A stretch of 64,000 nt of DNA from Rhynchopus sp. YZ270_cl-10 (lineage: Eukaryota > Euglenozoa > Diplonemea > Diplonemida > Diplonemidae), in NCBI GenBank assembly GCA_964035575.1, contig OZ037862.1, forward strand, positions 62,001-126,000. The letters run 5' to 3'. The notes under the pieces were generated by a model, which had not been told where the DNA came from, ran no database searches, and was given only the letters and a program-made list of their open reading frames with translations. A program made the translations under genes and the position numbers. How positions within the stretch are numbered: position 1 is the stretch's first letter; every line of letters begins with the position of its first letter. Shown here piece after piece: positions 11,677-62,332 of the stretch.

Positions 11677-11717
11677 TATACAAATGAATCTAAGCCTCTC
11701 GTGCTCAGTCACTTTAT
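11677..11717. repeat. H1 hairpin repeat copy
   Basis: CTAAGC, loop CTCTCGT, then GCTCAG followed by TCAC; one stem position is A-C on the plus strand but G-U in gene-sense RNA. Confidence 0.75.
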
Positions 11718-12636
11718 TGAGTGAGAACAATGTAGTGTTCTCTCTTTCACGTTCGTTCGGGGAACTGTAGGCAAAGAGATGGCATGTGGTTGATACCACT
11801 TTGTGGGTGGTGAAAAAATGTGACTGTTGTGGTTGAACTGCGTGTTGGGGAGCGAGAGAAAGTGGAAGGTAGATGAACCGAAGAAGGCGTGAGTAGTGAA
11901 AGGGAAAGGTGTAGCGGAGGGGGTTCATTTTCCATTTGGTCTCTTTACTGAAAGTGGTATAACTTTTTAGCACAACAAAAAAAAGGTATAGCCAAAGTCA
12001 CGTAAAAAAGGGTGAAGGGAGTTTGGAAAAGAGGCGAGAAAACGAGAGACATTTTTTTTTCGAAGAATTCTCTAAGGGTGCACACGTTTTGTTGTGCTGG
12101 AACGATTCGAAAGTGCCACAGGGCCACACGGTCTGGTGTGTGCAGAACACGTCGCATTTGGAAAAAGTGAAACATATTTGACCAAAACTCGGCGTATATT
12201 TTCTAAAATTATTTTTTTTTGGTAATTTGTTAGGATCAGTGTAGCTTCCATTTGACAGTCTTCGCTGTGTTTTTTGTTACAGCTTTTTTCCAAAGGGGCG
12301 AAGAATGGGAGGTTTTGTTACTGTTATTGTTCGCAAATAATTGCTTTTTGAAAAGAACCTGCGAAATGTGTATGTCGGCCGCTCCAAACGGGTTTATATG
12401 GCACACATTTTCCCGTCAATTTCAAAAAGCGAAAATGTAATTTAAGATATTACAAGGACTCTAGGATTCATGACGAATCTTGCAAATTTGTATGAGATTG
12501 GGCCTTGGAGGAACAAATGCCCTAAGCAAGATGTGCTTGGTCAGGTATTCTCTCACCACCCCTCTAGAAGGGTCCCCGTTGCTGTCGAAGGTTGTCGTCC
12601 CCCACCATCGCACACATAGACCCGCCCCGACTACCA
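11718..12636. other. intergenic, no gene seen
   Basis: AT-rich spacer downstream of the CCCH gene. No recognisable coding region or structured repeat beyond those listed just upstream. Confidence 0.5.
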
Positions 12637-14249
12637 CTACTGTGTACGCTGCCGTCTGTGGTTGTTTTGTTTGTTTGTTTGTTTGATACTCTGAACATGG
12701 TTAACCACAAATAGTCATGCATTTTGTGTGGTAATTCAATCAAAAGGTCCTCATACCTCGCGTCTGGCGCGCCTTCGTCCCCCTCCTCCTCGTCACGTTC
12801 TCTTTTGGGCGGGCGTCGTGTATGGAACTCCTCAAGCTGGCGGTCGAGGTCTGTCTTGGACGAGCGTGGTGTGGCTGAAGCCTCTGGGCTGCACGGTATG
12901 GACGGTGCGCTTGCTGGCGACACTACACTTGCAGTGGCGTCACCTGCACTGCCTGCAGCGCCCACTCCACCTGCCGCAGCTGGCACAGCCGGGGTCATTG
13001 AAGGCGTCTTCTTCGGGGTGCCTCTGTTCTCGGGGAAGTCAACCACAAAGCACTCACCATCGCTCTCCTCGGTATGCGACGACTCTGAGAAGTCGTCCTC
13101 ACTCTCCGTTGGACGCTGTACCGGCACTGCGGCGGGTGCTGGCTGTGCGGTCTTGCTGAGCAGTGTGGTCAGCTTCGAGAGTGGACGCTGCTGTGGGGGC
13201 GAGCGGGCGGAGAGGACGGGGCTGAGGGCCTTGGCGGCCTCGGGGAGGGAGGTCGGGCTGAGGAGTGCTGCGAACTGCTGTGTGCCGCCTGTGGGTGTTG
13301 CTGGGGGTGTGGCGAGGGCGGCCTTCAAAGGCGACACGGAGACGGACGCAGTGTTGCGGCGGTCGATGACGCCACCCCCACCACTGCCGGTGGCCGTCGT
13401 CGTGCCGCGCTTGCGCAGAGACTCCAATAACGCAGACTTCAGCTGCTCGTCGCTCTTCGGTGCTGCCAGAGGGGAGGGCAGTGGCGTCGTGCTCGCACCC
13501 CGCCCAAGGCTCTCCATGAGGCTGCTGACCACGGCCTCGCGCTTCTGTTGGTACTGCGTGTCGCGTAGGGTAAGGGTGTGTTCGTAGGGGCATTGGTTGC
13601 GCATGCAGCCGCTTGGCTGTGGGTGGTGATGTGAGGGTGTGGGGGGAAATGCTGAAAAATGCTATGTGGAGGGGGAAAATAGACAAAATAGGGGTGAGGG
13701 TGTGTACCTGTGTGTAAAACCTGCACACTTCCGGCATCTTCGCGGTGTGTCTGAGGTTGTGCAGTTCATGTGCCTTGTCTGCCTTCAACTTTGCCTGCGA
13801 GTACTGCCCTGCAGCTTCGACGGAGTTCAGCTTTATCGCAGCCTGCTTGATGAGGGCTGTGCGCTGTGTGTTCTGCCATCTTGCGAACGTCTCTGCGTCG
13901 GGCACCTGCAGGGGTCTGTTGGGTGTTGGGTGGTGTCGTTTGGGGTCCTGCCTTCATGTGAGCCTGCGCATCACGACCAGACTGAACATCCGGCATTAGC
14001 GAGCCAGTCTTTACTATGCTATGTTCACAATCTGTCTGAACCATTTACCCAGTATTCCCCCTTTGCAACATACCCACGGAGACTTGCTAGGAGGGCTGCC
14101 TCTTGCTGTGCGAGCTCGTCTTGCTGGCCACCTTGCTGCTGGAGGCCGTTGAGACGCTCCTGCACGCTCATCGGCACGCCCATCGCGCTGTGTAAAGGGC
14201 TGTTGTGACCCATGGAAACGTTCCGCATTAGTCCATTATTTGTGTACAT
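12637..14249 (-). CDS. CCCH zinc-finger protein, four exons
   Basis: Exons 14249-14074, 13915-13708, 13616-12757 and 12655-12637 join in frame to 420 aa. The single finger is split across an intron and reads CRFYTQPSGCMRNQCPYEH, that is C-x8-C-x4-C-x3-H, around residues 117-135. CCCH fingers usually bind RNA. The N-terminus is rich in Gln and Met; the C-terminal 280 residues are low-complexity Ser/Pro/Thr/Ala with an acidic patch (SEDDFSESSHTEESDGE). The last splice uses GAGGTATGAG and an ACCACAG acceptor and leaves only seven codons; if it is not used, the frame reads on to a stop at 12564. No ortholog is recognised. Confidence 0.7.
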
Positions 14250-15002
14250 TTCTTCCTTCTTCTAGACTGCTCAATGGAGATTGGGGACAACTTGAGGGTG
14301 ACAGAACTAAGTGGATAAGTGGAGCTCATCCTTGGGTTATGCTAATACAACCAAGTCTTTTTCAAAAAGGAAAAAGGTTGAAAGTGCAAAAGAAGCGCCC
14401 CACACAACACCGCCCGAACGTAGTATGGAGTGCTGAAAGGTAGGGCTGCGTGGAAGGCCAAAATATGAAGCTCGTACTGTGCAGTAGTAGGCCAAAGAGA
14501 AGTAACAAAGATATCAGAAAACCCACCCAAAATCGTTATTTTTTCTAAGTGCGATTCGTGCATCCATAAAAGGCATAAATCGTTCGGCGGGACCAACAAG
14601 AGGACAGGTTTAGTGATTGCAGTTTATTTGCTGGAAATAAATGAAGAAAGCTTTGAGAGATTGCGCATCGCATGTGCACATCCATCTGAAAAAAGACAAA
14701 AAAAAATAAGTTGACTTGAAATCGTGACAGTACCTTGGTACAAATAATGACGGGCGTGGAAAGTCCACCCCATGATCCCTCCGTGGGGGCGTTCGTTCGA
14801 TGTGATTACCACAATACGCTTCTTGTTTTTTTTTATTTTCTTTTCAAAACAAAAACTGGAGTGATATGGGCTTTTTTTTACCCACCAAACACCCCAAAAA
14901 ACAAGAAATTTATGGGAAAAAATGATGTGAAAAAAGAAATAGATAGGGGGAAGTAATGGGCTAGATACGGCGAAATGGAGGCCAACGAAAGAAGTGTCTC
15001 AC
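14250..15002. other. intergenic spacer with one diverged A repeat
   Basis: No gene seen. It holds a diverged A repeat at 14709-14788 and T/A runs; the rest is unremarkable. Confidence 0.5.
14709..14788. repeat. A repeat copy (diverged)
   Basis: TTGACTTGAAATCGTGACAG and TACCTTGGTA are kept. The second hairpin has changed to GTGGA-AAG-TCCAC, a different sequence that still pairs. Confidence 0.7.
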
Positions 15003-20280: not shown

Positions 20281-20282
20281 AA

Positions 20283-21101: not shown

Positions 21102-23744
<2,643 letters not shown>

Positions 23745-23986: not shown

Positions 23987-25435
23987 CCGTAATTGTAAAA
24001 ATATTGGGACGTAAAAAAGTTGAAACGTAAAAATGTTGGGCCGTAAAAATGTTGGGACAGCTGGGCGAAAAATTCCCGTCCCAACATTTTTACGGCCCAA
24101 CATATGGGAGCGTCCGCGAAAGACCCCCCCCTAAAGCTAACATCCATGCTTATTGGTATTTCACTAATTAAAATTTTGGTATTTTATAAGATTTTTTTTT
24201 ACAATGAACTCAGAGTTAAGTTTCTGAGTTCATTAAAAAAAAAATCGGTGAAAAATTCCGAGTAGGTATTAATTTAGATAGGAAAAGCTATGTCAGCAGC
24301 TATGTGTCCCCTTATTTTACCTGTAAATACTAAGGATATAGGAAGGAATTCACTAATATCTGTCTCTAAACCCATTATCAAAAAGGGGGGGGGAGGAAAG
24401 GGGGGTGGAGGCTTGTCGCCCCCTCCGAACACTCTAAATAGAGCGCGAAAGAGCTTCACGCTCCGGGTCGTCTGCGGCGATGTCGACTTTCTCGCAGAAA
24501 ACCCCCTTTTTTGAGTGACCCTATTGACCTCCGTGATGAGTCTCTCCAAGAGTTGCAGACAATTGTCCGCCTGTTCCTCCTCTTCCTCCTCCGTCTCGCT
24601 GTCACTGTCCTGAGGGTGTCGCTGATGCAACTACAGGAGTAGTAAACGGCGGACACCCCTTTTCTCCTGGTGGTTGTCTTCTGCATATGGAGGGACATAT
24701 GCTTCGAGCTACACACCTCGCGCATCCAGCTCCTCGCGCCCCACCCTTTGCCCCCCTGCCAGTGGACCCCTGCATACACCTGCAGCTCGGCGAAGTTTTT
24801 TAGGCCTCGGAAAGGCCGGGTTTTCAGCTCCTGAGCGAATGCTTTGGCTGGTGATTACATTTCCCCCTGTTGTGTTGTTCTATGGGTGGTTATATGGGTG
24901 TTTGTGAGGATTTCCTTGTATATCCTTAGTATTTACAGGTAAAATAAGGGGACACATAGCTGTTGACATAGCTTTTCCTATCTAAATTAATACCTACTCG
25001 GAATTTTTCACCGATTTTTTTTTTAATGAACTCAGAAACTTAACTCTGAGTTCATTTAAAAAAAAAAATCTTATAAAATACCAAAATTTTAATTAGTGAA
25101 ATACCAATAAGCATGGATGTTAGCTTTAGGGGGGGGTCTTTCGCGGACGCTGCCATATTTACGTTCGGGAATTTTTACGTAGATTTTGTTAGGGAAGATT
25201 TGTCTTAGCTAGCAAAAAAAAAAAAAATTTTTTTTTCGATTACCTAGCGAGTAGGCGGGTTGAACGTCACTGGCACGTGTCAAAGTTTTCAAGAGGGCGT
25301 GGGAAAAAAACGCTAAGACAAATAGGCTCAAGCCAAAGTAGCCCAAAAAATGTTGGGCCGTAAAAATGTTGGGACGAGCGAGCCTTTTTTGGGCTGTCCC
25401 AACATTTTTACGGCCCAACATTTTTACAATTACGG
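23987..25435. mobile_element. outer inverted-repeat DNA element, split by another element
   Basis: Ends are CCGTAATTGTAAAAAT and its reverse complement, flanked by TA on both sides. Inside each end are tandem units of GTAAAAATGTTGGGCC and self-complementary hairpins of the same unit. TA duplication would fit a Tc1/mariner-like non-autonomous element. Without the 1051-bp insert at 24105-25155 it is about 400 bp. No transposase is present. Confidence 0.7.
24105..25155. mobile_element. TA-flanked MITE, copy 1 (long form), nested
   Basis: Inverted repeats of about 240 bp begin TGGGAGCGTCCGCGAAAGAC (TGGCAGCG on the right arm). TA flanks both ends (24103-24104 and 25156-25157). The 570-bp middle has a small minus-strand open frame with an acidic run that I do not consider a gene. 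It sits inside the outer element at 23987-25435. The TA target suggests Tc1/mariner-like mobilisation. Confidence 0.85.
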
Positions 25436-25761
25436 TATTTGCTTTTTTGTTTTGTTGAAAGGGGAGAGGGAGAGAGAGGAGGGAAGGCAGAGTAAAAGGC
25501 GGAATAGTGTTCGTGATTTTTTTTTTCCTTTTTGTTTTGCGGGGGTCTTTTTGAATTTTCTCTGGTATTTTCTTTACATTTTTTTTTTGGCAAGTCTTCC
25601 CATTTTTTTGTCTTCGCAATCGTTGTCGCAGGACTGTGCAAAGAAGGGGGGGAAAAAAATGTTTGTTTTTTTTTTTAGTTCAATTCAAGCTGGTAATAAT
25701 ACCCAACGTCTTCCCCCCCGATACAGCGCAAGAGAAAAGAAAAACAAAAAAACAAAAAAAA

Positions 25762-25802
25762 GTGCAAATGCCTCACCGTGCATCGGCGGACGCAGGCGCT
25801 GG
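25762..25802. repeat. A2 repeat copy
   Basis: AGTGCAAATGCCTCACCGTG, then CATCGGCGGACGCAGGCGCT; long-arm form as at 55157. Confidence 0.75.
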
Positions 25803-26050
25803 TAACAAAATCAAAAAAAAAAGTACGACTTTAACAAAATAAAGAAGAATGCAAAAAAAAAGAAAAAAGCAGTAATAAATACCGTTTACCCCCTTCCCTC
25901 TTTTCCCATCCCCGCATTTTTTCTCTCTTTTTTCTTCCGAAAAAAAATCAAAAAAAAAAGGAAAAAAAAAAATTGAAGAAAATTCAAAACTCCCCATCAC
26001 CCCCGCCATCAAATAAACTGAAGAAAAAAAAAAGAAAAAAAGGAGATATT

Positions 26051-26088
26051 ACTAAGATGACCCCAAGCCTCATGTGCTCAGTCATCTA
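26051..26088. repeat. H1 hairpin repeat copy (diverged)
   Basis: TAAGATGACCCCAAGC, loop CTCATGT, GCTCAGTCATCT. Confidence 0.65.
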
Positions 26089-26148
26089 GCAAACAATGTG
26101 CTTCACTACACATCATTTTTTTTTTTAAAGGAGAAAAATAAAGGAAAA

Positions 26149-26185
26149 AGGTGATGAACTTCAGCCTCTCATACTTAGTTAACAT
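26149..26185. repeat. H1 hairpin repeat copy (diverged)
   Basis: GGTGATGAACTTCAGCCTCT, then CATACTTAGTTAAC; recognisable by order, with a weaker stem. Confidence 0.5.
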
Positions 26186-27179
26186 ACCCTTAAAATAGGG
26201 AGCACACCCATTGACTGCTCCGGTCCTTCTCAATCCCTTCCCGTGGAAAAAAAAAAGCCCCCCAAAAAAAAAAAAGTTGCTGCTTTTAAAATGAAGACAA
26301 AGCACTAAACGTCAAAAGAACAGAAACCTTTTGAGTGTTTTTTGTTACGTTGATGCCCTTATGGCGACCCCGTGAAAGGAGAACAACTATTTTGGGGGAA
26401 ATTTTTATTAATCCGGGCAGTGGGATACAGCCAAAACTCGCGCCACTACCCGATGATGAAAAAAACCAAAAAAAAAAAAATAAAAGAGAGAAAAAAACAC
26501 ACATAAATAAAACTGAAAGTAAAAGATGCGTAAAAGGCTTGGTCGTTCTGTCGTGGTTGTCTAGGAGCCTTTCGATCTCTTTTTTTCAAAACACACAAAA
26601 GTGAAATTGTTAATTACGTAAATGCAAGGAACCCACAATACCAGCTCCCGGATAGCACAAACAATAATTGAACACCTTTTTTTCCTTTTGTTTCTTGCTA
26701 AAACAAAAAACAGGGTGTGTTTGCTTTTGCCACTCATCATAAAGGAGCAAGCATTATTCCTGGGTCTAACTCATAAGGCAATGATTAAGGAAAAACAAAA
26801 AGATATCTTTTTTTTGACGGGAAACGAAGCGCTTCCGTAAAAAAAAGCAAAAACAAAAACAAAACAAAAAACAATTTTTTTTTTTTTTTTGAAACGGAGT
26901 ATATTTCTTGATGATGAATATTTTCTTATCCTGTACACTATATTTTTTTTCTTCAATTTACAGTATCATTTTTACCCCCCACCCACCCATACCCATCCCC
27001 CCATTGATGAAAAAAATTTTTTTTTCCCTTTTTTTGCAGAACTAAATCGAACGAACATGCACACGGGGCACTATTGCTCCAAAAAAATGTGCATTGTTTT
27101 GTTGCGATTACTGCGTTTTGATGTTACGTTCGATTGGCTCGAAGCTGAGACCACACACACCACTCCCTACGTTTTCTCT

Positions 27180-29110: not shown

Positions 29111-29906
29111 AGCTCTAGAGTTGCTTGATACTGATTGATATGATAAAAGTGTTTACTTCCGTTTCTTTTCCTTTTAGTGTACAAGTGTAGTCTGTTAGTG
29201 GGTGATGGTTTGTGAGGGATGGTTTTGAGAGCAATCTCATACGTGGTACGAGGACAAAGTTTACAAAAGAGAAGGAGGCCCTTTTTGTTTATAGTATTAT
29301 AATACGTTGTCGTGCATGCGCATTGTTCTGTTGTGGAGTGGACACACACAGGGAAAACAATAAACGTCCAGAAGGCAGACACAACAACACAACAGCCGCG
29401 AGCGGCTCGTAGGTGCCCTGCAAAAAGCCTTCAGTAATTATTGCGTTCCTTGTGGAAACGGAGTGGATCTGGGTACCCCAGCAGCAACAAAAAAAGACAG
29501 GGAGAGAGAAAGAGAGAACAGGATGCGAATGTAGGAGCAGGACAAAAAGAAAGAAAAAAAAAGGCAGCACAACGTTGGGCACGAGTGGAGTGAAAACAAA
29601 TACCTGAGATGGTTGCATTCTTCCGTCAGAGAACAAAGTTGCAACGACAGAATTGAATGCTACGCTTCGGGTATTTCTTTTGTGACAAACAGCAAATAAC
29701 AAAAAAAACACAAATGTCCCCTAAACAAAATAGGGCACACGCAGCAAAAACAGCGCTGTGCTGTGGGATACGTGCAAACAAAATCGGTTGTGCTGTGTTG
29801 CCCCCGTCTTCTGTGTCATCACACTGCTGCGGAGACACGCATTTTTTTTGTAGGGACAACCGAAAAGCGGAACAGAGAAAGAAAGAAAAGCTTCAAAAAA
29901 AAAAAA

Positions 29907-29943
29907 AGATAGGCTACCTAAGCCTTGCGTACTTAGTCACCTC
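29907..29943. repeat. H1 hairpin repeat copy
   Basis: CTAAG, changed loop CCTTGCGTA, CTTAGTCACCTC. Stem kept, loop altered. Confidence 0.7.
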
Positions 29944-30724
29944 AACAACAACAAGATGGGGGTTGGAGAAACCAACTACTTGCTTGCCAGCAACAGCAAA
30001 ACCTCGCGTGCACAATTCTTCCCTGGCCTGTTTTCTTTCTCTCTCTCTCTTTTTGCAATAAAAACACGGCCGCCAGAAGTGCACAATTACGGTTTTTTTT
30101 TTTTTTTTCCTTCCCTTCTTCGGCGCAATAGTGTGTGCACAGGGAACATACGATATCGTGCTAATCACGAGCAGACGTAAACCCCTGTTGCTAACACATA
30201 GCACCATTGTCACATGCAAGAGCAAACGTGTATGGGGGTGGGGATGGGACGGGATGGGGATGGGGATTGGGTAGTTGTAGTCATAGGTACTACCACAAGG
30301 TGGGAGTCTTCACTCTCCACAGCGGTGCGACACCTACGGCAGCCAACAACGCAAACAACGTTCCCAAGGGAAATGCAAAAAAAAAAAAAACGTCACTATA
30401 TTATGGGTTCTGCGACTCTTGTGCAACATCCACACAAGAGAACAGAAAAGAAGTCAGGGGGGTGAGGTGAAAGTGAAGTAAAGTGAAGTGGGTACAGATG
30501 ACGAGCAGATCCACTCACTCAGTGTTGCGACACACACAACACACGCAACACACACACACACACGTAACCTGGGTTGGGTTGGGTTTTGTACCTACGATTA
30601 CGTTAAAAGAGTGGAGCTCGTCACCTTTCTTCTAGTTGTGCAAATAGTGGGCTTTTCAAAGCGAATCGCAAATGGAAGGGAAAAAAACAAAACAAAACAA
30701 AACAAAACAAGCAAAAATAAAAAG

Positions 30725-30758
30725 CAGGCCTAAGCCACACGTGCTTAGTCACACCTAC
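30725..30758. repeat. H1 hairpin repeat copy
   Basis: GGCCTAAGC, loop CACACGT, GCTTAGTCACACC. Stem kept, loop altered. Confidence 0.75.
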
Positions 30759-36003: not shown

Positions 36004-36542
36004 TGTTCCGCTTCTCTTCTGTGCTGCTGTTTCTTTTTGTGGTCTGTTATATCTGTTGTGGGGATGTGGGTATGTCGTTGCATCGGTGTTGCAACAAGAA
36101 CAAAGTTTCAAAAAGAGAAGGACCTTTTTTAATCTTTATCCTCGTATTCTGAGAAGGCCTCCAACGTGACAGAACCAAAGCGGAAGACACACACAATAGC
36201 TGCACCACGGTGACTGTCTTTCCAGAGGGGAGAAAAATTTACGAGCCCTACTAGTTACTTTACCGTACTAGAGCGCTTTGGGTACTGTGGACATTCCCGG
36301 CTCGCAAAACACTGGCAAATATCACAATATTCGAATAGAAAGAAAAAACCGACAAATTGTTATAGGGGCTAGAAACACTACCATATCCATACACTTCAAG
36401 GCTAGCACATGAAGAGTGCCTACCCAAACCCTACCCATTTTTACTTTTGAAAACTTGGTTTGTATTAGTGTAGCCACCCTAGAGTGTGCTCCACTATACT
36501 TTAGTTTATTTTTTTGTATCAACCCCTCCCACAACCTTCGTC
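36004..36542. other. intergenic, one dispersed repeat
   Basis: Between the secreted-protein start and the six-TM stop. Apart from the 52-bp repeat at 36445 nothing is recognised. Confidence 0.5.
36445..36496 (+). repeat. 52-bp dispersed repeat, copy 1
   Basis: Starts TTTTGAAAACTTGGTTTGTA; its exact reverse complement (52 of 52) is at 60700-60751, 24 kb away. It lies about 50 bp downstream (gene sense: before position 36543) of the six-TM gene's stop, so in its 3' UTR. Confidence 0.85.
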
Positions 36543-39126: not shown

Positions 39127-40139
39127 ACCATCACCGTGTTTTAATTTGACTTTTGTGGCTGACCTATAGTCTAAACTTTTTTATATGCGGGGAGGGAGAA
39201 AATAGTACATCAAAACCCTTCGCAGGAGTGTTCGTGTTACCGTAGGGGGGTATTTGTGATGTTTATCATAAAACAACAAGCAGCTTTGTATGATTACCGT
39301 ACTTTGATGCATGAAGCATAGTCCACACGTGTGACGAAAGAAATATCAAAAATAGTCGGCAAAAACATCTTGCTGAAGTGTTGGGGGCGAAATGGTTCAA
39401 GTGTTTGAGAATCACTGCGCCTCACGGCAGAACAGTGCGCTCTGTGGATGCGAAACACAAGAGAAAAGTTGGGTAGGGGGAAACCGGGGTGGGATTGAGC
39501 CTCGTGCTCAAAATAAAAATAAAACAAACTGTAGTGTTGATGCAGGCACCTCCGACTGACCCACATACGATGCCAGCCATCCGGATGAAAGCATTAGTAC
39601 CCTGCGGCCTATAACAGTAGGTAAACAAATTTTTAGAAGATGGATTTCACCTCACGGCGGAAATGCCATCCCAAAGGATGCAATGAAACGACTCTGCCTC
39701 CTGACAACAGACCATGATAGAGTGAGTGGCACTGTGTTAACGGTTAAAAGCGTATTTTATAACATGTGTCCAGCACAAACCCACACGGACCTTATAACTT
39801 GGCAGCAAGACTGGGGAACATTAGAAAGAGAGAGAAACGCACACTATTTCTAGCAAAACAGCAAGCATTTAAGGGTGTACCATGGTACGCCCGGAATAAG
39901 AGAAAAACGATGAAATGTGCTTCACTGCACACATACATCAGAGAGGATTCGGTTGTCGACATCCAGGTCAAACGAAACACGATTGCAGAAAACACCCATG
40001 GCATTGACACTTCAACATATTTCACAAGCAAACTGTGGTGTCTGCCTCCTCTGCACACTTTGCTTGCGTTGGTCTGTTCTGAACTTCAGACCGTCTACCG
40101 ATGCGCCGCTCACAGATCTGCGTGGGGTGTGTGGTGTTT
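39127..40139. other. intergenic, one repeat E copy
   Basis: Spacer between the LRR-protein stop and the 155-aa gene. Only repeat E is recognised. Confidence 0.5.
39540..39616. repeat. dispersed repeat E, copy 2
   Basis: Matches 7702-7779 with only a few changes over about 70 bp, in the same orientation. Confidence 0.8.
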
Positions 40140-43100: not shown

Positions 43101-46100
43101 CTGCTGCGTGTCGAGAACAGTCCACACTCCGTTCGAGAATCCCTGCATCGTGAAGTCCTTGGGTGAGCGTGTCTTCACATCGCCGTTCGAGTAGACAATT
43201 GTGTAGGACATGAAACGACGGTCAGATCCGAAGTTGTATCCGATCTCAGAAGGTGTCACAAACGTCTGCGACAGGTACATGCTGCTCGGAACACCGTCAA
43301 AGGCGTTGCTCTGTGGGTACTCAGAAGTGTACGCAGGGGTACCGAAAGCGCCCAGACCAGTTGGCGGGGATGGAGGGGACGGTGCGGTAGGTGCGTCAGC
43401 CCAAGAGAGTTCACCGATCGAGAGCATAACCACACCCTCACGAACGTCATTGTCGTCAGTCACAACAAGCTTGTACTGGGTGTACTCAGCAGGAGAAGCG
43501 ATTGTGTACGTCTTTGTGTTTCCTGCTGCCTCCCACACTGCAATCGTCTGGTCCTGCTGCGTGTCGAGCACAGTCCACACGCCGTTCGAGAATCCCTGCA
43601 TCGTGAAGTCCTTGGGTGAGCGTGTCTTCACATCGCCGTTCGAGTAGACAATTGTGTAGGACATGAAACGACGGTCAGATCCGAAGTTGTATCCGATCTC
43701 AGAAGGTGTCACAAACGTCTGCGACAGGTACATGCTGCTCGGAACACCGTCAAAGGCGTTGCTCTGTGGGTACTCAGAAGTGTACGCAGGGGTACCGAAA
43801 GCACCCAGACCAGTTGGCGGGGATGGTGGGGACGGAGGGGATGGTGGCGTGGGTGCGTCAGCCCAAGAGAGCTCACCGATCGAGAGCATAACCACACCCT
43901 CACGAACGTCATTGTCGTCAGTCACAACAAGCTTGTACTGGGTGTACTCAGCAGGAGAAGCGATTGTGTACGTCTTTGTGTTTCCTGCTGCCTCCCACAC
44001 TGCAATCGTCTGGTCCTGCTGCGTGTCGAGCACAGTCCACACGCCGTTCGAGAATCCCTGCATCGTGAAGTCCTTGGGTGAGCGTGTCTTCACATCGCCG
44101 TTCGAGTAGACAATTGTGTAGGACATGAAACGACGGTCAGATCCGAAGTTGTATCCGATCTCAGAAGGTGTCACAAACGTCTGCGACAGGTACATGCTGC
44201 TCGGAACACCGTCAAAGGCGTTGCTCTGTGGGTACTCAGAAGTGTACGCAGGGGTACCGAAAGCACCCAGACCAGTTGGCGGGGATGGTGGGGACGGAGG
44301 GGATGGTGGCGTGGGTGCGTCAGCCCAAGAGAGTTCACCGATCGAGAGCATAACCACACCCTCACGAACGTCGTTGTCGTCAGTCACAACAAGCTTGTAC
44401 TGGGTGTACTCAGCAGGAGAAGCGATTGTGTACGTCTTTGTGTTTCCTGCTGCCTCCCACACTGCAATCGTCTGGTCCTGCTGCGTGTCGAGCACAGTCC
44501 ACACGCCGTTCGAGAATCCCTGCATCGTGAAGTCCTTGGGTGAACGTGTCTTCACATCGCCGTTCGAGTAGACAATTGTGTAGGACATGAAACGACGGTC
44601 AGATCCGAAGTTGTATCCGATTTCAGAAGGTGTGACAAACGTCTGCGACAGGTACATGCTGCTCGGAACACCGTCAAAGGCGTAGTACAGCGGGTACGCA
44701 GAAGAGTACGGAGCAGTGCCGAAAGGACCCAGGCCATTGGGCAGGATTGGCGGGGACGGCGGCGATGGTGGGGATGGTGGGGACGGTGGCGTGGGTGCGT
44801 CAGCCCAAGAGAGTTCACCGATCGAGAGCATAACCACACCCTCACGAACGTCATTGTCGTCAGTCACAACAAGCTTGTACTGGGTGTACTCAGCAGGAGA
44901 AGCGATTGTGTACGTCTTGGTGTTTCCTGCTGCCTCCCACACTGCAATCGTCTGGTCCTGCTGCGTGTCGAGCACAGTCCACACGCCGTTCGAGAATCCC
45001 TGCATCGTGAAGTCCTTGGGTGAACGTGTCTTCACATCGCCGTTCGAGTAGACAATTGTGTAGGACATGAAACGACGGTCAGATCCGAAGTTGTATCCGA
45101 TTTCAGAAGGTGTCACAAACGTCTGCGACAGGTACATGCTGCTCGGAACACCGTCAAAGGCGTTGCTCTGTGGGTACTCAGAAGTGTACGCAGGGGTACC
45201 GAAAGCGCCCAGACCAGTTGGCGGGGATGGTGGGGACGGAGGGGATGGTGGCGTGGGTGCGTCAGCCCAAGAGAGTTCACCGATCGAGAGCATAACCACA
45301 CCCTCACGAACGTCATTGTCGTCAGTCACAACAAGCTTGTACTGGGTGTACTCAGCAGGAGAAGCGATTGTGTACGTCTTTGTGTTTCCTGCTGCCTCCC
45401 ACACTGCAATCGTCTGGTCCTGCTGCGTGTCGAGCACAGTCCACACGCCGTTCGAGAATCCCTGCATCGTGAAGTCCTTGGGTGAACGTGTCTTCACATC
45501 GCCGTTCGAGTAGACAATTGTGTAGGACATGAAACGACGGTCAGATCCGAAGTTGTATCCGATTTCAGAAGGTGTGACAAACGTCTGTGACAGGTACATG
45601 CTGCTCGGAACACCGTCAAAGGCGTTGCTCTGTGGGTACTCAGAAGTGTACGCAGGGGTACCGAAAGCGCCCAGACCAGTTGGCGGGGATGGAGGGGACG
45701 GTGCGGTAGGTGCGTCAGCCCAAGAGAGTTCACCGATCGAGAGCATAACCACACCCTCACGAACGTCATTGTCGTCAGTCACAACAAGCTTGTACTGGGT
45801 GTACTCAGCAGGAGAAGCGATTGTGTACGTCTTTGTGTTTCCTGCTGCCTCCCACACTGCAATCGTCTGGTCCTGCTGCGTGTCGAGCACAGTCCACACG
45901 CCGTTCGAGAATCCCTGCATCGTGAAGTCCTTGGGTGAGCGTGTCTTCACATCGCCGTTCGAGTAGACAATTGTGTAGGACATGAAACGACGGTCAGATC
46001 CGAAGTTGTATCCGATCTCAGAAGGTGTCACAAACGTCTGCGACAGGTACATGCTGCTCGGAACACCGTCAAAGGCGTTGCTCTGTGGGTACTCAGAAGT

Positions 46101-47087
46101 GTACGCAGGGGTACCGAAAGCGCCCAGACCAGTTGGCGGGGATGGAGGGGACGGTGCGGTAGGTGCGTCAGCCCAAGAGAGTTCACCGATCGAGAGCATA
46201 ACCACACCCTCACGAACGTCATTGTCGTCAGTCACAACAAGCTTGTACTGGGTGTACTCAGCAGGAGAAGCGATTGTGTACGTCTTTGTGTTTCCTGCTG
46301 CCTCCCACACTGCAATCGTCTGGTCCTGCTGCGTGTCGAGCACAGTCCACACGCCGTTCGAGAATCCCTGCATCGTGAAGTCCTTGGGTGAGCGTGTCTT
46401 CACATCGCCGTTCGAGTAGACAATTGTGTAGGACATGAAACGACGGTCAGATCCGAAGTTGTATCCGATCTCAGAAGGTGTCACAAACGTCTGCGACAGG
46501 TACATGCTGCTCGGAACACCGTCAAAGGCGTTGCTCTGTGGGTACTCAGAAGTGTACGCAGGGGTACCGAAAGCACCCAGACCAGTTGGCGGGGATGGTG
46601 GGGACGGAGGGGATGGTGGCGTGGGTGCGTCAGCCCAAGAGAGTTCACCGATCGAGAGCATAACCACACCCTCACGAACGTCGTTGTCGTCAGTCACAAC
46701 AAGCTTGTACTGGGTGTACTCAGCAGGAGAAGCGATTGTGTACGTCTTTGTGTTTCCTGCTGCCTCCCACACTGCAATCGTCTGGTCCTGCTGCGTGTCG
46801 AGCACAGTCCACACGCCGTTCGAGAATCCCTGCATCGTGAAGTCCTTGGGTGAACGTGTCTTCACATCGCCGTTCGAGTAGACAATTGTGTAGGACATGA
46901 AACGACGGTCAGATCCGAAGTTGTATCCGATTTCAGAAGGTGTCACAAACGTCTGCGACAGGTACATGCTGCTCGGAACACCGTCAAAGGCGTTGCTCTG
47001 TGGGTATGCAGAAGTGTACGCAGGGGTACCGAAAGCACCTGCGTGGACACCTACTATCAGGGCGAGCTGCACCGTTAGGCGGAGCAT
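40140..47087 (-). CDS. giant secreted protein: 13 F5/8C-like domains plus LRR tail
   Basis: Single exon, 2315 aa from ATG 47087 (the upstream frame extension starts at a GTG). A signal peptide MLRLTVQLALIVGVHAG leads straight into 13 near-identical units of about 151-160 aa. Each unit fits the F5/8 type C (discoidin) jelly roll: an AFDG turn, IGYNFGSDRRF, a TRSPKDFTMQGFSNGVW core and a closing VVMLSIGELSWADAP. Units are joined by Pro-rich linkers built from PSPP. Residues about 2003-2315 form a plant-type LRR domain, opening with an LRRNT-like WNGNDVCAWEGVTC and then about 10 irregular LRRs (LTGLVELNVRGTGVTGF). No TM segment is seen. The family logic is carbohydrate or lipid binding by the F5/8C units, hence adhesion or a surface coat. 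Confidence 0.9.
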   Translation of the reverse strand: MLRLTVQLALIVGVHAGAFGTPAYTSAYPQSNAFDGVPSSMYLSQTFVTPSEIGYNFGSDRRFMSYTIVYSNGDVKTRSPKDFTMQGFSNGVWTVLDTQQDQTIAVWEAAGNTKTYTIASPAEYTQYKLVVTDDNDVREGVVMLSIGELSWADAPTPPSPPSPPSPPTGLGAFGTPAYTSEYPQSNAFDGVPSSMYLSQTFVTPSEIGYNFGSDRRFMSYTIVYSNGDVKTRSPKDFTMQGFSNGVWTVLDTQQDQTIAVWEAAGNTKTYTIASPAEYTQYKLVVTDDNDVREGVVMLSIGELSWADAPTAPSPPSPPTGLGAFGTPAYTSEYPQSNAFDGVPSSMYLSQTFVTPSEIGYNFGSDRRFMSYTIVYSNGDVKTRSPKDFTMQGFSNGVWTVLDTQQDQTIAVWEAAGNTKTYTIASPAEYTQYKLVVTDDNDVREGVVMLSIGELSWADAPTAPSPPSPPTGLGAFGTPAYTSEYPQSNAFDGVPSSMYLSQTFVTPSEIGYNFGSDRRFMSYTIVYSNGDVKTRSPKDFTMQGFSNGVWTVLDTQQDQTIAVWEAAGNTKTYTIASPAEYTQYKLVVTDDNDVREGVVMLSIGELSWADAPTPPSPPSPPSPPTGLGAFGTPAYTSEYPQSNAFDGVPSSMYLSQTFVTPSEIGYNFGSDRRFMSYTIVYSNGDVKTRSPKDFTMQGFSNGVWTVLDTQQDQTIAVWEAAGNTKTYTIASPAEYTQYKLVVTDDNDVREGVVMLSIGELSWADAPTPPSPPSPPSPPSPPILPNGLGPFGTAPYSSAYPLYYAFDGVPSSMYLSQTFVTPSEIGYNFGSDRRFMSYTIVYSNGDVKTRSPKDFTMQGFSNGVWTVLDTQQDQTIAVWEAAGNTKTYTIASPAEYTQYKLVVTDDNDVREGVVMLSIGELSWADAPTPPSPPSPPSPPTGLGAFGTPAYTSEYPQSNAFDGVPSSMYLSQTFVTPSEIGYNFGSDRRFMSYTIVYSNGDVKTRSPKDFTMQGFSNGVWTVLDTQQDQTIAVWEAAGNTKTYTIASPAEYTQYKLVVTDDNDVREGVVMLSIGELSWADAPTPPSPPSPPSPPTGLGAFGTPAYTSEYPQSNAFDGVPSSMYLSQTFVTPSEIGYNFGSDRRFMSYTIVYSNGDVKTRSPKDFTMQGFSNGVWTVLDTQQDQTIAVWEAAGNTKTYTIASPAEYTQYKLVVTDDNDVREGVVMLSIGELSWADAPTAPSPPSPPTGLGAFGTPAYTSEYPQSNAFDGVPSSMYLSQTFVTPSEIGYNFGSDRRFMSYTIVYSNGDVKTRSPKDFTMQGFSNGVWTVLDTQQDQTIAVWEAAGNTKTYTISSPAEYTQYKLVVTDDNDVREGVVMLSIGELSWADAPTPPSPPSPPSPPTGLGAFGTPAYTSEYPQSNAFDGVPSSMYLSQTFVTPSEIGYNFGSDRRFMSYTIVYSNGGVKTRSPKDFTMQGFSNGVWTVLDTQQDQTIAVWEAAGNTKTYTISSPAEYTQYKLVVTDDNDVREGVVMLSIGELSWADAPTPPSPPSPPSPPTGLGAFGTPAYTSEYPQSNAFDGVPSSMYLSQTFVTPSEIGYNFGSDRRFMSYTIVYSNGDVKTRSPKDFTMQGFSNGVWTVLDTQQDQTIAVWEAAGNTKTYTIASPAEYTQYKLVVTDDNDVREGVVMLSIGELSWADAPTPPSPPSPPSPPTGLGAFGTPAYTSEYPQSNAFDGVPSSMYLSQTFVTPSEIGYNFGSDRRFMSYTIVYSNGDVKTRSPKDFTMQGFSNGVWTVLDTQQDQTIAVWEAAGNTKTYTIASPAEYTQYKLVVTDDNDVREGVVMLSIGELSWADAPTPPSPPSPPSPPSPPILPNGLGPFGTAPYSSAYPLYYAFDRVPSSMYLSQTFVTPAELGYNFVSDRRFLSYTIVYSNGDVKTRSPKDFTMQGFADGVWTVVDTQQDQTIAVWEAAGNTKTYTIADPGYYSQYKLVVTDDNDVREGVVMLSIGELSFSTACEGHACAHKALYGIKYLVGVNETSVFDSWNGNDVCAWEGVTCFRDEFVQRLNLEGTNITGELPDLSLLTGLVELNVRGTGVTGFHGLPDSLLDLEMSFTQINGPFPYALQNVTRYVGARGAGLTGPFPTFLDTVTGFDLSLNNLEGPIENLPSGLINLVAEGNSFSGGLPECDSCKRVILNHNKLTGGLRSYPNMVRGHFHFNLLTGALDMSLMPEATYVDVTHNALSGALENLYATDLKIEVLKAGSNAFSGNFPFVEDGPHRTLSMLVINQNNLSGRAPTSDEVSNAADVVIYRENNFGMKQQDKVMH
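41362..47060. repeat. coding tandem array, 13 units of 453-480 bp
   Basis: Unit boundaries fall near 46897, 46435, 45982, 45529, 45067, 44587, 44125, 43663, 43210, 42748, 42286, 41824 and 41362. Most units differ by only a few bases. Spacing is 462 bp with the PTPPSPPSPPSPP linker, 453 bp with the shorter PTAPSPPSPP linker and 480 bp with the ILPNGL linker. Units 6 and 13 share a variant start (GPFGTAPYSSAYPLYY), seven units apart. Confidence 0.9.
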
Positions 47088-47867
47088 GGTGGCTGTGTAA
47101 GAATGTGCGTGCACAAAGTTGTGTTGTGTGAAAAGACCTGAAGAGTGTTGTGTTAGCAGAATGCGGTTCTGTGTAGGGGAGCAAGCACATCAGGGAAAGT
47201 TTTCATCATTTATCACAGTGCAGTATATCAGGAAGGTTAGAACAAGACAATGCGATGTTTCTGACAAAACAAAACCAAGGTACAGTGTAGATATCCAGTC
47301 GCGAAGCCTTCCAAGGCGTGCATACCAAAATGGGTGAAACAAATGACCTCTCAGTGACGGCACGACGTGTAAAACATGTAAAACAATGCCTATTACGAGG
47401 TATTTCGTTTTTGAAATATTTACTTCAAACAGAAAATTTGGTGTATCTAGTGTAATGAGTCTCTGTGTTAGCAAGCAGTACTGTACTGTCTCTGTGGTAG
47501 AAACAACCAACAGCAATGCTACAGACAGAGGGTCGGACAGGAGGTGACACTGTAGGACTTTTTAAACACTGTTATCGCAGAACGAAGCATAAAAAAACAA
47601 ACAAAATCATCCAAGCTGAACCTAAGCCTCGTATTCTTAGCCACCTCTTGACCCAAGAAAAAAGTGAAGTGTGTCGTCATGCAGACACCTCTGGGATGTA
47701 GGTAAAAACAACAAAGAACAAAAAAAGACGCACAACGAACCTCCTGCACGCCCCGAGATAGGGGATGGTGACATGAATGGGGGAACAAAAAAACTGCAAA
47801 ACATTGTAACTAAAAACGTATTTTCAAACAAAATCAGAGCAACACTCCCTTCTTTGCCTACAGATAT
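47088..47867. other. intergenic spacer with one H1 repeat
   Basis: A TCTTCAG site about 65 nt before the LRR-protein ATG could be its leader acceptor. Otherwise only H1 at 47609 is recognised. Confidence 0.5.
47609..47648. repeat. H1 hairpin repeat copy
   Basis: CTGAACCTAAG, loop CCTCGTATT, CTTAGCCACCTC; about 220 nt past the stop of the gene at 47868. Confidence 0.75.
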
Positions 47868-49620: not shown

Positions 49621-51231
49621 TTATTCGTTTTCCGCGGAGACTTGAAGTGGCGCTGTGGCTTCTTTGCCGGCAATGTTGTCAAGCAGCTCTCTGTGATGCT
49701 TTTGTGCGGCAGTCTCGAACGACGCAGAGTTGAGGTCACCAGGGGGCAGATCGATCTGTTGCAAAGCAATTCAAAGAAAGAGTGGTTGCTAAAACGCAGC
49801 TCGGTTGAGTGCATTAGTCATGCAAGAAAGAAGGGTTGAAAGATGAACCTAACCCGAACGTAAGCCTCTGTGCTTAGCCGTCTTGATCATGTTGTGCAAC
49901 ATTCACTGCACAACGGGGGGGAATTTTGCAACAAAAGCAACATACGTCGTCTTGGCCATCGGGACCGCGAATCAAATGGATCATGTCGTTCGGAGGGGAA
50001 ATCCAGAACCCGTCTACACCTGGGGGAATTGCTTCTACCTGTTGCAAATGGTTTGAAAAAGATTTGGTTCAAAAAGAAAATTATTACGCATCCACTCGAC
50101 GTTGACACCTCCTGATATTGACAGGTCTGCCGAAAACACTCACACACACTTAGGCAATGTTTTGCTCTAATGAGTTACCTTTTTTCACAGAGTCTGCGGA
50201 AACTTAAACTCCCCTCAAATGGAGCAATATTCCGCAGGAATTATTCAAAAGCTGTTTTCAAAACACCACTCCACCTTCTAACATACCTCTGGCCGGAGCG
50301 TGACCTTCTTCCTCCCCTTGAGGTACGCCCGCGCTGTAAACGTATTCGCTGTCGAGACTTGAAGCCAGACTGCAGTAGCACAGAGCCCCTCCACGCTGTC
50401 AATCCACAGGGACATGCCGCCACGCCACTTAATCTTGCAGCAGAACTGACAGTAGTGCGCCACCTCTAGCCCAAGCGTCTCACGATAGAACGACACTGTC
50501 GACTCGTATTTCGACTTTGGACATTTAATCGCAATGTTCCTCCCCCCTGTGAATGAGCACGATGTGATCTTCCCTTTCTGCCCTTGCGGTGCGTGCGAGG
50601 CTGCGCTCACGTTTAAGGGATTCGCACTTCTTTCGTCATCTTCTTCTATGATTTTGTCCACCCCGATTGCGCTGGAAACTGTTGTCTTTGTTGTGTTCGC
50701 TGCAGTAGGGTACTGTGCCAGAGAGGACTCCACTGATTTGATGATATGCACCATGTCGTTCGGTGGTGCAGACCAAAACCCTTCTACCCCTTCAGGCAGC
50801 GTTTCGGTGATGTCGGTGCGGAGAAGGGATGATTTTTCAAAGATATCTTGTCCTTGGGGAAGGTCTGTTGCATCGACAGTAAGCCATATGGTCGGATGGG
50901 TCAGTTTGTCGATACGCACCACTGTAAGATTTGCGTCATCACTCCACTCAAAACAACACGCAATTGCCTCCCTTTGATGCTCCCTCTGCTTCAACCGCAG
51001 CCCAAGAATATCTCTATAGAACGCTACCGTGCTCTCATACTTATGAGAAGGGCATCTCAATATAATCAACGCACCACCACCAAACCCGACCACACCCTGT
51101 GGTATCACACTCGGTTGAGAATCCACTGCAGGCGGGACAGGAGAGGAGTCAGAAGTAGGTTGCTTCGGGTGGTTGTTGTTATTGCTGCCTCCAGACTTCC
51201 CCTTTTTACCCCCTTTTTTCTTCCCTCCCAT
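49621..51231 (-). CDS. two-domain VOC (glyoxalase/bleomycin-resistance fold) protein, three exons
   Basis: Exons 51231-50287, 50038-49946 and 49755-49621 give 390 aa. After a Lys/Gly-rich start (MGGKKKGGKKGKSGG), two homologous halves each contain C-P-x2-KYESTV-x-FYR-x2-LGL (near residues 60 and 245), then an IWLTV or AVWLQV strand and a closing PPGVDGFWISPPNDMIHLIR (FWSAPPNDMVHIIK in half 1). This is the paired beta-alpha-beta3 layout of the VOC superfamily. Metal ligands cannot be assigned with confidence, so the reaction is unknown. Intron 2 (49756-49945) carries an H1 copy. Confidence 0.75.
49837..49885. repeat. H1 hairpin repeat copy with an insertion (VOC intron 2)
   Basis: AAGATGAACCTAA, about 8 inserted bases, TAAGC, loop CTCTGT, GCTTAGCCGTCTT. 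Stem halves remain complementary around the insertion. Confidence 0.65.
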
Positions 51232-51390
51232 TTTCTTTTTTTTGTCCTTAATTTTGTGTGGAAGGGATGCAAGGATAATAGAGGGTTTCAAAGAGAATCC
51301 TGTTTACCATTTCTGGCCCCCGGATGATCTCTTTTTTAGGTGCAATACCGTTATTAGTTCTCCCTTTTAAAGGGAGCTTTTTTAAAGAAA

Positions 51391-51437
51391 AGTTTATAAG
51401 ATGACCCTAAGCCTCTCTGTGCTTAGTCACCTTATCA
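51391..51437. repeat. H1 hairpin repeat copy (near consensus)
   Basis: TTTATAAGATGACCCTAAGC, loop CTCTCTGT, GCTTAGTCACCTTAT. Confidence 0.9.
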
Positions 51438-51873
51438 TATTCGTTATCGCACAGCATCAGCTGCGTTGGCTTCCACAACGTTTGTTTAAAAGTAGGCCTT
51501 TTTTTTTTTCAAAACACCTGACACTATTTTCTTGACAAAAAAAAAATTCTTTTTTGTCGAGGGGGGGAGGGGAGAGAGGAGGGAGGAGGAGGGGGGGAGA
51601 GGGAGCGAGCGAGCACATCACCTCTCAAGATCCCCCCCCCCACACTTCCTCCAAAATTCGTATCCTGTGAAACAAATCACCTCAAGTGACGCTTTCCTTG
51701 TTATGCCCAAGGCAAGAGAGACAGCGAGAGAGACCCCCTTCTTGAGGGAAAAAGGAAACGAAAAAACCAACCTCCATTGTGTGGTGGTATTGTTTGTTTG
51801 AGGCAAGGACAAAAACCATCACACACACACACACACCCCTATTATTTTATTTATATTTTTTTTGAAAAAAGTT

Positions 51874-51915
51874 TTTTAGATGATAAACTAAGCCTCTCGT
51901 TGCTTAGCCACCTTT
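51874..51915. repeat. H1 hairpin repeat copy
   Basis: TTTAGATGATAAACTAAGC, loop CTCTCGTT, GCTTAGCCACCTTT. Confidence 0.8.
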
Positions 51916-55881: not shown

Positions 55882-56290
55882 ATTGGGTGGGGAGGGGGAG
55901 TGAGTTCACTCGCGTACCGTGAGGATAGAAGGGTACCTGTGTGATGTGGAAGCTCTGGCATTGGGGAGGTGTACCGTGGCGTTGTGGGTGGGGGTGGGTG
56001 GGTGGGTGTTTATCATGAAGGAGGCTGGGTGGAGCAAAAGGGGGGTGTAAAGGGAGGGGGGTTATTGACAAGTCATTTTGTCTCAAATCATGTGTTCTTG
56101 AAATAAGCGATTTTTTAACGTCTATTTTCTGTGGAAAATATGGGGGAAAAAATCCACATGAGGGGGAGGAAAAAAACGTCACGAAAAAGAAGAAGACCTT
56201 TTGTTGACTGCTAAAAAAAGTATTTTGGGGGAAAGGGCCTGGTTGACCAATGAGTATATCCCAGGTTGTCTGTTTGAAACAAGAGAAAGG

Positions 56291-56332
56291 TTGGAAAGAT
56301 GATCCTAAGCCTCTCTGTGCTTAGTCTCCTGG
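56291..56332. repeat. H1 hairpin repeat copy
   Basis: GGAAAGATGATCCTAAGC, loop CTCTCTGT, GCTTAGTCTCCTGG. Confidence 0.85.
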
Positions 56333-60751: not shown

Positions 60752-60760
60752 AAAAAAGAA

Positions 60761-60806
60761 AGGTTTATAAGATGATCCTAAGCCTCTCGTGCTTAGTCAC
60801 CTTAAA
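60761..60806. repeat. H1 hairpin repeat copy (consensus)
   Basis: GGTTTATAAGATGATCCTAA, then GCCTCTCGTGCTTAGTCACC and TTA; identical over most of its length to the copy at 22903. Confidence 0.9.
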
Positions 60807-60848
60807 AGCTTGGAAGATGGATGTGTCTCTCGTGCACACATCAGAAGA

Positions 60849-60893
60849 GGTAAGATGATCCTCATACTTAGCCTCGTTCTTAATCACCTTTCC
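60849..60893. repeat. H1 hairpin repeat copy (rearranged)
   Basis: GGTAAGATGATCCTCATACT, TAGCCTCGTTCTTAATCACC and TT. The outer stem is kept while the inner stem has moved. Confidence 0.65.
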
Positions 60894-61110: not shown

Positions 61111-61416
61111 AAATAAAAAAAAAATATGGGAGATCCTTTAGGTGGACAGTCCTAATGAGATTTGGCATCTTTTCTTTTTTTGCATTTTCATACAGTAAAC
61201 AAAAAGGGAACACCGCACATAACACACATACCACACATAACATTGAATGCAGACATCACAGTGTCTGCCTGCAAACGTTTTCTTCGAATATTGATTGGAG
61301 TTAGGATACGAAAATAAAAAGCATTCAGAATGACGCAGGAGGGGGGAAAGCAAATACTGGCTGCACCTGCGTTTTTTTTTCTGCTGGCTTTTTGTAAAAC
61401 AGAATTACATCAAAAA

Positions 61417-61470
61417 AGAGTCGAAAGTGCAAATGCCTCATCGCTCATCGCAAGCACTACTACTCTAACA
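61417..61470. repeat. A2 repeat copy (diverged)
   Basis: GTCGAAAGTGCAAATGCCTC, ATCGCTCATCGCAAGCACT. Confidence 0.6.
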
Positions 61471-62292
61471 CACAGTATTTCCGCAAAAAAAAAAAAAAGA
61501 AAAGTTGAAAGTTGAATATGTCTCGTGTGCATACACATCTTTACAAAGAAACAAAGGATTATACACCAAAAACACAGCATAGCATTACAGAGAAGAAGGG
61601 TAAAGGAATGACTTGATATACAGCCATACAAACAAAACATCGCTAGGGTTAAAAAAAAAAACCCCCCCAAAAAACCCCCACCTTAGTTTTTACCCCTCCA
61701 TCGTTGTATGACTGTAGCTTTTTTTGAGAGACGAGACAAAAAGGGCGAAATGGACACAAAAAAAGGGGGTGTTTTTAGTTATTTGCTTTGTACAGGAGAA
61801 ACAGCCGGGAAATTCCACAATTTGCATTTCTTTTGATGAATACAATTTACAAGGTTTTTGAGAGCTGTCCGGTAGAGGAATGGTAGGAAAAGGAGGGGAG
61901 TTACAGCATGATGTGGTATCACGGTTAGGGTCAGTTGAGACCCCTGAAACAGGGACCCCCCCCTATTCCCAGGAGTCCACTTTTTGCATGTAAACATCAC
62001 ACAAGACACCATTTTGCTGATCCCTTCATTTGTCCTGGACCTCGGTGAGATTAGTGGAGTAGAAATCTCTTTACTGCCAAAAAAAAAAAAAAAAATACAC
62101 AAAAAAAATATAGTGTTTACCACAGAACGGCCAGATTTTACTGACGCGAACGTCGGGGGAGGAAAGCTACGACTGTATTACATTGAAAAAAGCAGCTTAG
62201 CCTAGATCAAAACTTTCCCGTTTTTTGTCCACATCCTTTTTTTCCCTCATAAATGGAACCCCCCTCCGCTCCCTTCCCCCTAAATAAAATAT

Positions 62293-62332
62293 TGGTCAGA
62301 ACCTGAGCCTCTCCCTTCTTAACCCTTCTTGA
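62293..62332. repeat. H1 repeat copy (highly diverged)
   Basis: GTCAGAACCTGAGCCTCTCC, then CTTCTTAACCCTTCTTG. Recognised by order only. Confidence 0.45.

Follow-up and report, generated by a model that had tools for sequence, protein, structure and literature searches.

What is the short hairpin element that recurs some fifteen times along a stretch of diplonemid chromosome, and why does it always read in the same direction as the genes around it? The stretch, referred to here as the window, comprises the 64,000 nucleotides at positions 62,001 to 126,000 (forward strand) of contig OZ037862.1 in assembly GCA_964035575.1 of Rhynchopus sp. YZ270_cl-10, and the element, H1, was first described in an earlier note made from the sequence of the window. 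From the analysis given below, H1 is the last ~48 bases, in other words the 3′ terminus, of a non-long-terminal-repeat retrotransposon (a long interspersed nuclear element, LINE) of the apurinic/apyrimidinic endonuclease (APE) type, and is not a free-standing RNA signal. The full account, in which H1 is the LINE 3′ tail and the copies in the window are 5′-truncated insertions made by target-primed reverse transcription at T-rich sites, is given a probability of roughly 0.85.

The element and its fold

All 15 of the sites proposed in the earlier note are real and all lie on the minus strand, which is the gene strand of the window. The exact core, CTAAGC-N(3–12)-GCTTAG, occurs seven times in the window, always in the one reading, against 0.00 expected from 100 shuffles. 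A covariance model (R1) was built from 28 copies, 15 of which are the known window sites and so match by construction; it finds these at E values of 1.7e-15 to 6.2e-4, all minus, together with three weaker matches (E 0.07–0.87) that are also minus, and none on the plus strand. Outside the model, three 10-kb pieces adjoining the window contain four H1 matches at E < 1e-5, all minus. Two pieces of contig C1, which were picked for holding listed H1 copies (no fewer than two of which went into the model), give four further matches, again all minus, and all five pieces are minus-coding. Moreover, the copies sit outside predicted coding sequence, in agreement with their proposed location between genes or in introns: the final codon-usage model places 28 coding segments in the window, all minus and covering 47% of it, and none of the 15 copies has its midpoint within one. 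An earlier codon model gave 17 minus segments and one plus segment.

The 35–45 bp at which the element was first sized falls short of the conserved unit, which extends over ~48–50 bases with its 3′ tail, TAAACTTTTC. In the gene sense, it reads TAAGGTGA CTAAGC ACGAGAG GCTTAG GA TCATCTTA TAAACTTTTC, followed by T-rich sequence; the hairpin has 14 bp, including one G-U pair, with a 2-nt bulge and a 7-nt loop, and is followed by the pyrimidine tail. The gene-sense RNA folds at −14.5 kcal/mol, a value equalled by 0 of 200 shuffles, and the antisense RNA at −9.2 kcal/mol, equalled by 7 of 200. In keeping with this stronger sense fold, one outer-stem position that is A-C on the plus strand is indeed, as had been pointed out, G-U in gene-sense RNA.

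The parent retrotransposon

The nature of H1 becomes apparent from the sequence that precedes it across the genome (152.4 Mb in 126 contigs, with 100 places listed per pattern search). Directly upstream of the hairpin, the sequences of 30 fetched exact-core loci mostly differ, a minority having a longer stretch in common. With a 160-nt query, taken from the 3′ end of one copy and running into the hairpin core, 40 scored copies of 790 candidates match to the query end. What the 20 loci fetched with this LINE query have in common upstream is the last part of a reading frame, the stop codon of which lies 9 nt before the hairpin, and the frame is cut at differing points in different copies. One of the loci, L062, retains 1112 amino acids of the frame, with a reverse transcriptase domain (PF00078, 7.4e-24) whose best solved relatives are LINE-1 ORF2p (E 7.5e-19). 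A second locus, L064 on contig C9, has a frame of 1462 amino acids that contains both Exo_endo_phos, an APE-type endonuclease (PF03372, 1.8e-13), and RVT_1 (PF00078, 2.1e-24), such that the reverse transcriptase and the APE-like endonuclease which define an APE-type LINE stand in a single open reading frame (ORF). After this frame come, in order, the stop, CGAATATGA and the hairpin with one stem base changed. Upstream of it, in the same frame past one stop codon, lies a second open frame of at least 452 amino acids, which matches no Pfam family at E ≤ 0.01; it is a candidate for a separate ORF1. A 1462-amino-acid frame is found in 18 of 150 scored rows of a reverse transcriptase family search, rows that may not all belong to the same LINE.

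The closest organism-named matches to the LINE protein are retrotransposon proteins of another diplonemid, Diplonema papillatum, at ~42–50% identity over the aligned part (best of 7991 candidates scored). Extracts of the account of the D. papillatum LINEs (PMC10161547), with which comparison is by description and protein only, describe no tail hairpin or orientation rule. The suggestion that H1 might be a unit like a short interspersed nuclear element (SINE), tolerated in one direction, was therefore nearly right, except that the unit is a LINE 3′ tail, found mostly as tail-only retroposons.

Truncation, target sites and tail-only copies

The LINE copies begin at many points yet end alike, in ...TATAAACTTTTC, with point changes in some. 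Their 5′ junctions range from ~6462 to 8071 of L062, two starts at 6446–6448 being locus edges, which is the 5′ truncation with a single 3′ end that is expected of a LINE. The copies collected number 99, or 98 distinct ones since one on contig C81 was entered twice (as L055 and L062); 20 of the 99 could not be aligned by BLAST and were dropped from counts of 5′ ends, with five more dropped from the test for target duplications. In this test a repeat of the 5′ flank directly follows CTTTTC in 22 of 74 copies, as against 6.3 by flank shuffling (maximum 13 in 300 shuffles), and in 14 of the 26 LINE-extended copies, as against 3.4 (maximum 10 in 500 shuffles). Where the register is left free, duplications of at least 6 nt number 28 compared with 17.1 in shuffles (maximum 26). 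The sense strand is rich in T at the insertion sites, and we read the duplications and the T-rich sites together as signs that an RNA with a U-rich end was inserted at T-tracts by target-primed reverse transcription. Other results of the same test weigh against this reading: among tail-only copies by themselves the duplication is marginal (8 of 48 against 3.3, maximum 8 in 500 shuffles); free-register duplications of at least 8 nt stay within the range of the shuffles (9 compared with 4.9, maximum 12); and the register is not sharp, offset 6 giving 22 of 74 copies and offsets 7–9 giving 21, 17 and 13, the neighbouring offsets scoring nearly as high because the insertion sites are T-runs. Separately, around position 1501 of locus L030, an H1 copy has the same ~30 flank bases to its left and right, a direct repeat longer than a target duplication.

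In the 57 aligned copies that were found without the LINE query, the 5′ ends cluster at the base of the hairpin: 40 lie no more than 5 nt from it, 13 belong to longer copies and four to shorter ones, and in 47 of the 57 the 15 nt upstream are no more similar than background. Across the genome, at ≤ 2 mismatches, a 27-base hairpin pattern has 3317 matches and a 28-base pattern reaching 15 nt into the LINE has 448; since the patterns differ, the ratio is rough. A boundary as sharp as this would suit an independent SINE, the tail-only copies then arising from a ~50-nt RNA of their own that is mobilised by the LINE. However, the bulge variants GGATC, GGTTC and GGGTC are common to tail-only and LINE-linked copies, copies of intermediate length are present, and within the window a tRNA search finds nothing and Rfam at the gathering threshold gives no family. 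An independent SINE is, on this evidence, rather unlikely. Instead, because the bulge variants are shared, we read the tail-only copies as being, for the most part, aborted insertions of the LINE.

Insertion would then proceed as follows. The LINE endonuclease and reverse transcriptase would place the tail RNA at T-rich sites by target-primed reverse transcription; the hairpin would be what the reverse transcriptase recognises in choosing its template, a role suggested by the stringent-type LINEs described in extracts of PMC4176376; and reverse transcription would very often abort just past the hairpin.

Covariation and the case for a host signal

The earlier note had offered a processing signal of polycistronic RNA, or a protein-binding site, as readings of H1, with selection on the transcript as the simplest explanation. 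A variant of these is that a host RNA-processing or protein-binding hairpin has been captured by the LINE as its tail, which would be in keeping with the position of H1 between coding segments, its sense orientation and its RNA-type pairing. Against it stands the weakness of the covariation. In 61 distinct sequences of 65 aligned copies, out of the 98, the pair cells are standard in 86.1% of cases compared with 85.2% in shuffles (38 of 500 as high), double-change cells number 12 against 7.9 expected (32 of 500 as high), and pairs with double changes number five against 4.1 (171 of 500). Sliding the pairing partner lowers pairing to 17–54%, the structure having been derived from the consensus. 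Loop variants are seen, as had been claimed, but the accompanying survival of stems is hardly beyond that of shuffles, and the outcome that the note had set against its own proposal, no covariation beyond shared ancestry, is close to what the copies display. Such weak covariation is consistent with copies that derive from a structured source RNA and have since decayed neutrally.

Nor is there any fixed spacing of H1 from genes, the distance to the next predicted coding segment varying from 42 to 3829 bp, and on these two grounds a host processing signal was rejected. Taken with the joining of the tail to LINE coding sequence, its variable 5′ truncation, the target duplications and the decay of copies, they speak against both the processing signal and the protein-binding site. 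Capture of a host hairpin, against which stand the covariation, the spacing, the duplications and the decay, is very improbable. What may be retained of selection on the transcript is that the structure of the sense RNA may matter, most plausibly as a recognition tail in the transcript of the LINE itself; a host signal is unsupported.

Orientation relative to genes

The 19-base H1 core (≤ 2 mismatches) occurs 2692 times on the plus and 2715 times on the minus strand of the genome, the reversed pattern occurring 0 and 2 times. These near-equal strand counts arise because the listed copies run in opposite blocks. Relative to genes, the orientations, far from being equal, as the refutation set in the earlier note would require, are near-exclusively gene-sense. 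The final codon model puts genes on the same strand as H1 in 19 of 30 exact-core loci (0 disagree, 11 uncallable), in 14 of 22 LINE loci (0 disagree, 8 uncallable) and in all five block pieces, where L055/L062, L061/L063 and L008/L042 are double entries. This result leans on the retrained model, since a first model had given 14 agreements, two disagreements and 14 uncalled among the 30 exact-core loci, and it was retraining with the LINE masked that turned both disagreements into agreements. The final model also scores both strands as coding in L023 and L062 (52 against 41, and 69 against 18, respectively), and in 60 kb of reversed control sequence eight segments reached its threshold.

A further measure comes from flanking markers, that is, other copies of H1 or of P2, a second short repeat. 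Among the first 100 listed exact-core places (contigs C1–C5), 85 match the strand of their flanking markers, none conflicts and 15 lack markers that agree on both sides; if P2 alone serves as the marker, there are 44 matches and one conflict, the latter in a minus block without any listed P2. Within the anchor loci, 30 of 30 additional, diverged copies lie on the strand of the anchor. Counting against the rule is a copy at C4:1974713, the only one of the 15 to be examined further, which is antisense: it lies on minus where coding in the 10-kb pieces to either side is mainly plus, as is a second H1 copy at a distance of 2.9 kb. Its core is intact and its tail region is 88% identical to that of the LINE; it is probably old, and is antisense either in its own right or by virtue of a small inversion. 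The H1 sense rule is strong, therefore, but not absolute.

On a larger scale, 18 of the 41 contigs with listed LINE-extended copies have copies on both strands, and in 17 of these 18 minus lies to the left and plus to the right. Over contigs C1–C44, at the places listed, H1 orientation marks a chromosome-scale polarity of genes, as if transcription ran from a central region towards the ends; in C1 and C2 the orientation blocks are more numerous.

The cause of the one-way orientation

The simplest cause would be target polarity alone, a pyrimidine-tailed RNA entering T-tracts that lie mostly on the gene-sense strand, such as the polypyrimidine tracts of splicing. The T-rich character of the insertion sites on the sense strand agrees with this, as do pyrimidine tracts of ≥ 20 in element-masked non-coding sequence, which are 38:10 sense. 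In the same sequence, however, T-runs of ≥ 3 to ≥ 12 are only 0.56–0.68 sense, from which about a third or more of copies would be antisense. Target polarity alone cannot, therefore, give the orientation of H1, and as sole cause it is improbable.

A stronger rival is selection, whereby the LINE inserts both ways and antisense copies are removed, either through disturbed processing or because, where long blocks are transcribed in one direction, they would pair with the thousands of sense copies in nuclear RNA, giving double-stranded RNA and RNA interference. In this regard, the bias extends to the diverged copies (the 30 of 30 above), a milder sense excess is reported for the Leishmania SIDER (short interspersed degenerate retroposon) elements in extracts of PMC2689281, and most of the other short repeats sampled from the genome are mainly sense. 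Thus P2 is 21:1 sense by H1 markers, the lone exception adjoining a plus gene and so being sense, and 7:0 in a sample; P3 is 11:0 in the sample; and P4 is 19:0, after one row that was a P3 copy had been dropped. Set against selection, the exact-core copies, which are younger on average, are already 85 concordant to none discordant among the 100 listed, one of the 15 without a call proving antisense later. Moreover, on contigs 1–16, reverse transcriptase matches of other families that have agreeing two-sided markers are 13 sense and five antisense, where the strand is set by markers and not by local coding, as compared with five of five sense for H1 LINE places; antisense LINEs are therefore tolerated in these blocks. 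The A-tailed repeat P1, in addition, is 62:7 sense by markers, with 31 lacking a call, and 7:5 in the sample. A general intolerance of antisense mobile DNA is made less likely by these other LINE families and by P1, but keeps some weight because most of the short repeats sampled are mainly sense. Selection is considered quite possible, if short of an even chance.

Insertion restricted to the transcribed strand is the cause that we favour, with selection as a strong rival. A cause at the insertion stage is preferred because exact-core and diverged copies are equally one-sided; orientation would be set mainly at insertion, with the primer strand nearly always the transcribed (template) strand. 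The complete form of the proposal, in which insertion of the LINE and host transcription are coupled, priming uses almost exclusively the transcribed strand at T-rich tracts and reverse transcription mostly stops at the recognition hairpin, is advanced tentatively, as possible rather than probable. Two considerations tell against it. Firstly, the one-way rule is not special to the H1 LINE, since most of the short repeats sampled lie mainly in sense: among 12 k-mer repeat families listed, some of them pieces of one unit, eight are sense-only, three mostly sense (16:2, 10:2 and 9:2) and one mixed (4:6). Such a shared rule could be produced either by transcription-coupled insertion of retroposons or by general selection. 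Secondly, given that 17 of the 18 both-strand contigs run minus to plus, the directions of transcription and replication may coincide and are not separable from these data.

The window contains short repeats of these families, all in gene sense, at ~39537–39593 (P3), 6480–6499 (P4) and 11620–11641 (P2). A frequent ending of P3 and P4 copies is AACTTCACTTTT, which resembles the H1 tail. The majority form of P4 folds into a hairpin (z −3.1) and that of P3 is not outstanding (z −0.3). P2, P3 and P4 are possibly tails of other LINEs.

Copies and other features of the window

The 15 copies, all on the minus strand, vary widely in R1 score. Close to the LINE are those at 22896..22945 (71.5 bits), whose 50 bases are identical in alignment to the tail of L062; at 60755..60804 (70.4 bits), one base off that tail in alignment; and at 51384..51434 (69.1 bits), which takes in ~50 nt more of the LINE 3′ end (BLAST to L062 8014–8114, 95%). 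Tail-only copies lie at 11667..11716 (58.7 bits, E 3.4e-12) and 22350..22399 (52.6 bits), and diverged copies at 26040..26089 (45.1 bits) and 26137..26186 (39.9 bits). Further copies are at 29895..29944 (44.1 bits), 30709..30756 (35.0 bits), 47599..47648 (47.1 bits), 51865..51915 (45.4 bits) and 56282..56332 (56.4 bits). By alignment the copy at 49826..49885 (38.6 bits) has an insertion in the loop region; that at 60840..60891 (32.4 bits) has a rearranged loop, and that at 62282..62330 is the lowest-scoring (26.9 bits, E 6e-4).

Other features of the window include an open frame of 2349 amino acids on the minus strand (40140–47189), containing 13 tandem copies of a 453–480 bp unit that are 81–100% identical to the reference copy, which we guess is probably a surface or adhesion-like repeat protein. 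A minus-strand frame of 1660 amino acids (31153–36135) has no Pfam match at E 0.001. At 25209–25805, similar peptides (MLGRKNVGT...PNIFTAQHF) are encoded by frames on either strand, a sign of an inverted repeat.

Elsewhere in the genome there are 739 matches (≤ 1 mismatch) to the 3′ half of a spliced leader, of which 100 are listed; loci L034–L036 have CCAACGATTTCTAAAGCTACAGTTTCTGTACTTCATTG followed by GGTATG, which we take to resemble the diplonemid leader; considered with the relatives of the LINE protein, this makes a diplonemid host likely. Among the matches listed, arrays of such sequence occur in both orientations at C1:1.31–1.50 Mb, C2:0.96–1.05 Mb, C9:0.18 Mb and other places. At C3:1156485–1190457 there are reverse transcriptase frames of 1406–1505 amino acids in alternating orientation, which may, at a guess, be array-inserted elements.

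Comparison with known systems and significance

The comparisons made here draw on extracts of the papers cited. Stringent-type LINEs such as UnaL2 and ZfL2 recognise a 3′ stem-loop that is shared with short partner SINEs (PMC4176376). The H1 LINE resembles them in its endonuclease and reverse transcriptase, its specific 3′ tail hairpin, common to the copies, and the short elements that share this tail; it differs in its pyrimidine tail, its T-rich target, the predominance of tail-only copies and its near-absolute co-orientation with host transcription. By inference, the H1 tail would work as does that of a stringent-type LINE. The SIDERs of Leishmania, which are ~0.5 kb in length with a 79-nt signature (PMC2689281, PMC2424063), are likewise short, truncated and sense-biased retroposons within polycistronic units. 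Their sense excess is ~4-fold, and antisense copies are frequent in the intervals from poly(A) to trans-splice sites, whereas H1 is ~50 bp and a single antisense copy was found. Human L1 elements in genes are biased at insertion against the sense orientation, which is explained by transcription-coupled repair of the template strand (PMC5717806). Both cases would thus have an insertion-stage bias linked to transcription, the link being a proposal for H1, but the H1 bias is the reverse in direction and far stronger.

No description of the H1 element or of a near-absolute sense rule was found in titles and abstract openings among the papers listed from the open literature. Tail hairpins of LINEs and mild orientation biases are known. 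As a nearly one-way retrotransposon, the majority of whose copies are tail-only, the H1 LINE offers a natural test system for whether the orientation of insertions is set at integration, through strand use during transcription, or by later selection, and H1 itself shows which way the genes run in a diplonemid-like genome where they lie in long blocks of one direction. If insertion is indeed coupled to transcription, thousands of copies would mark out, over entire chromosomes, the course of polycistronic transcription.

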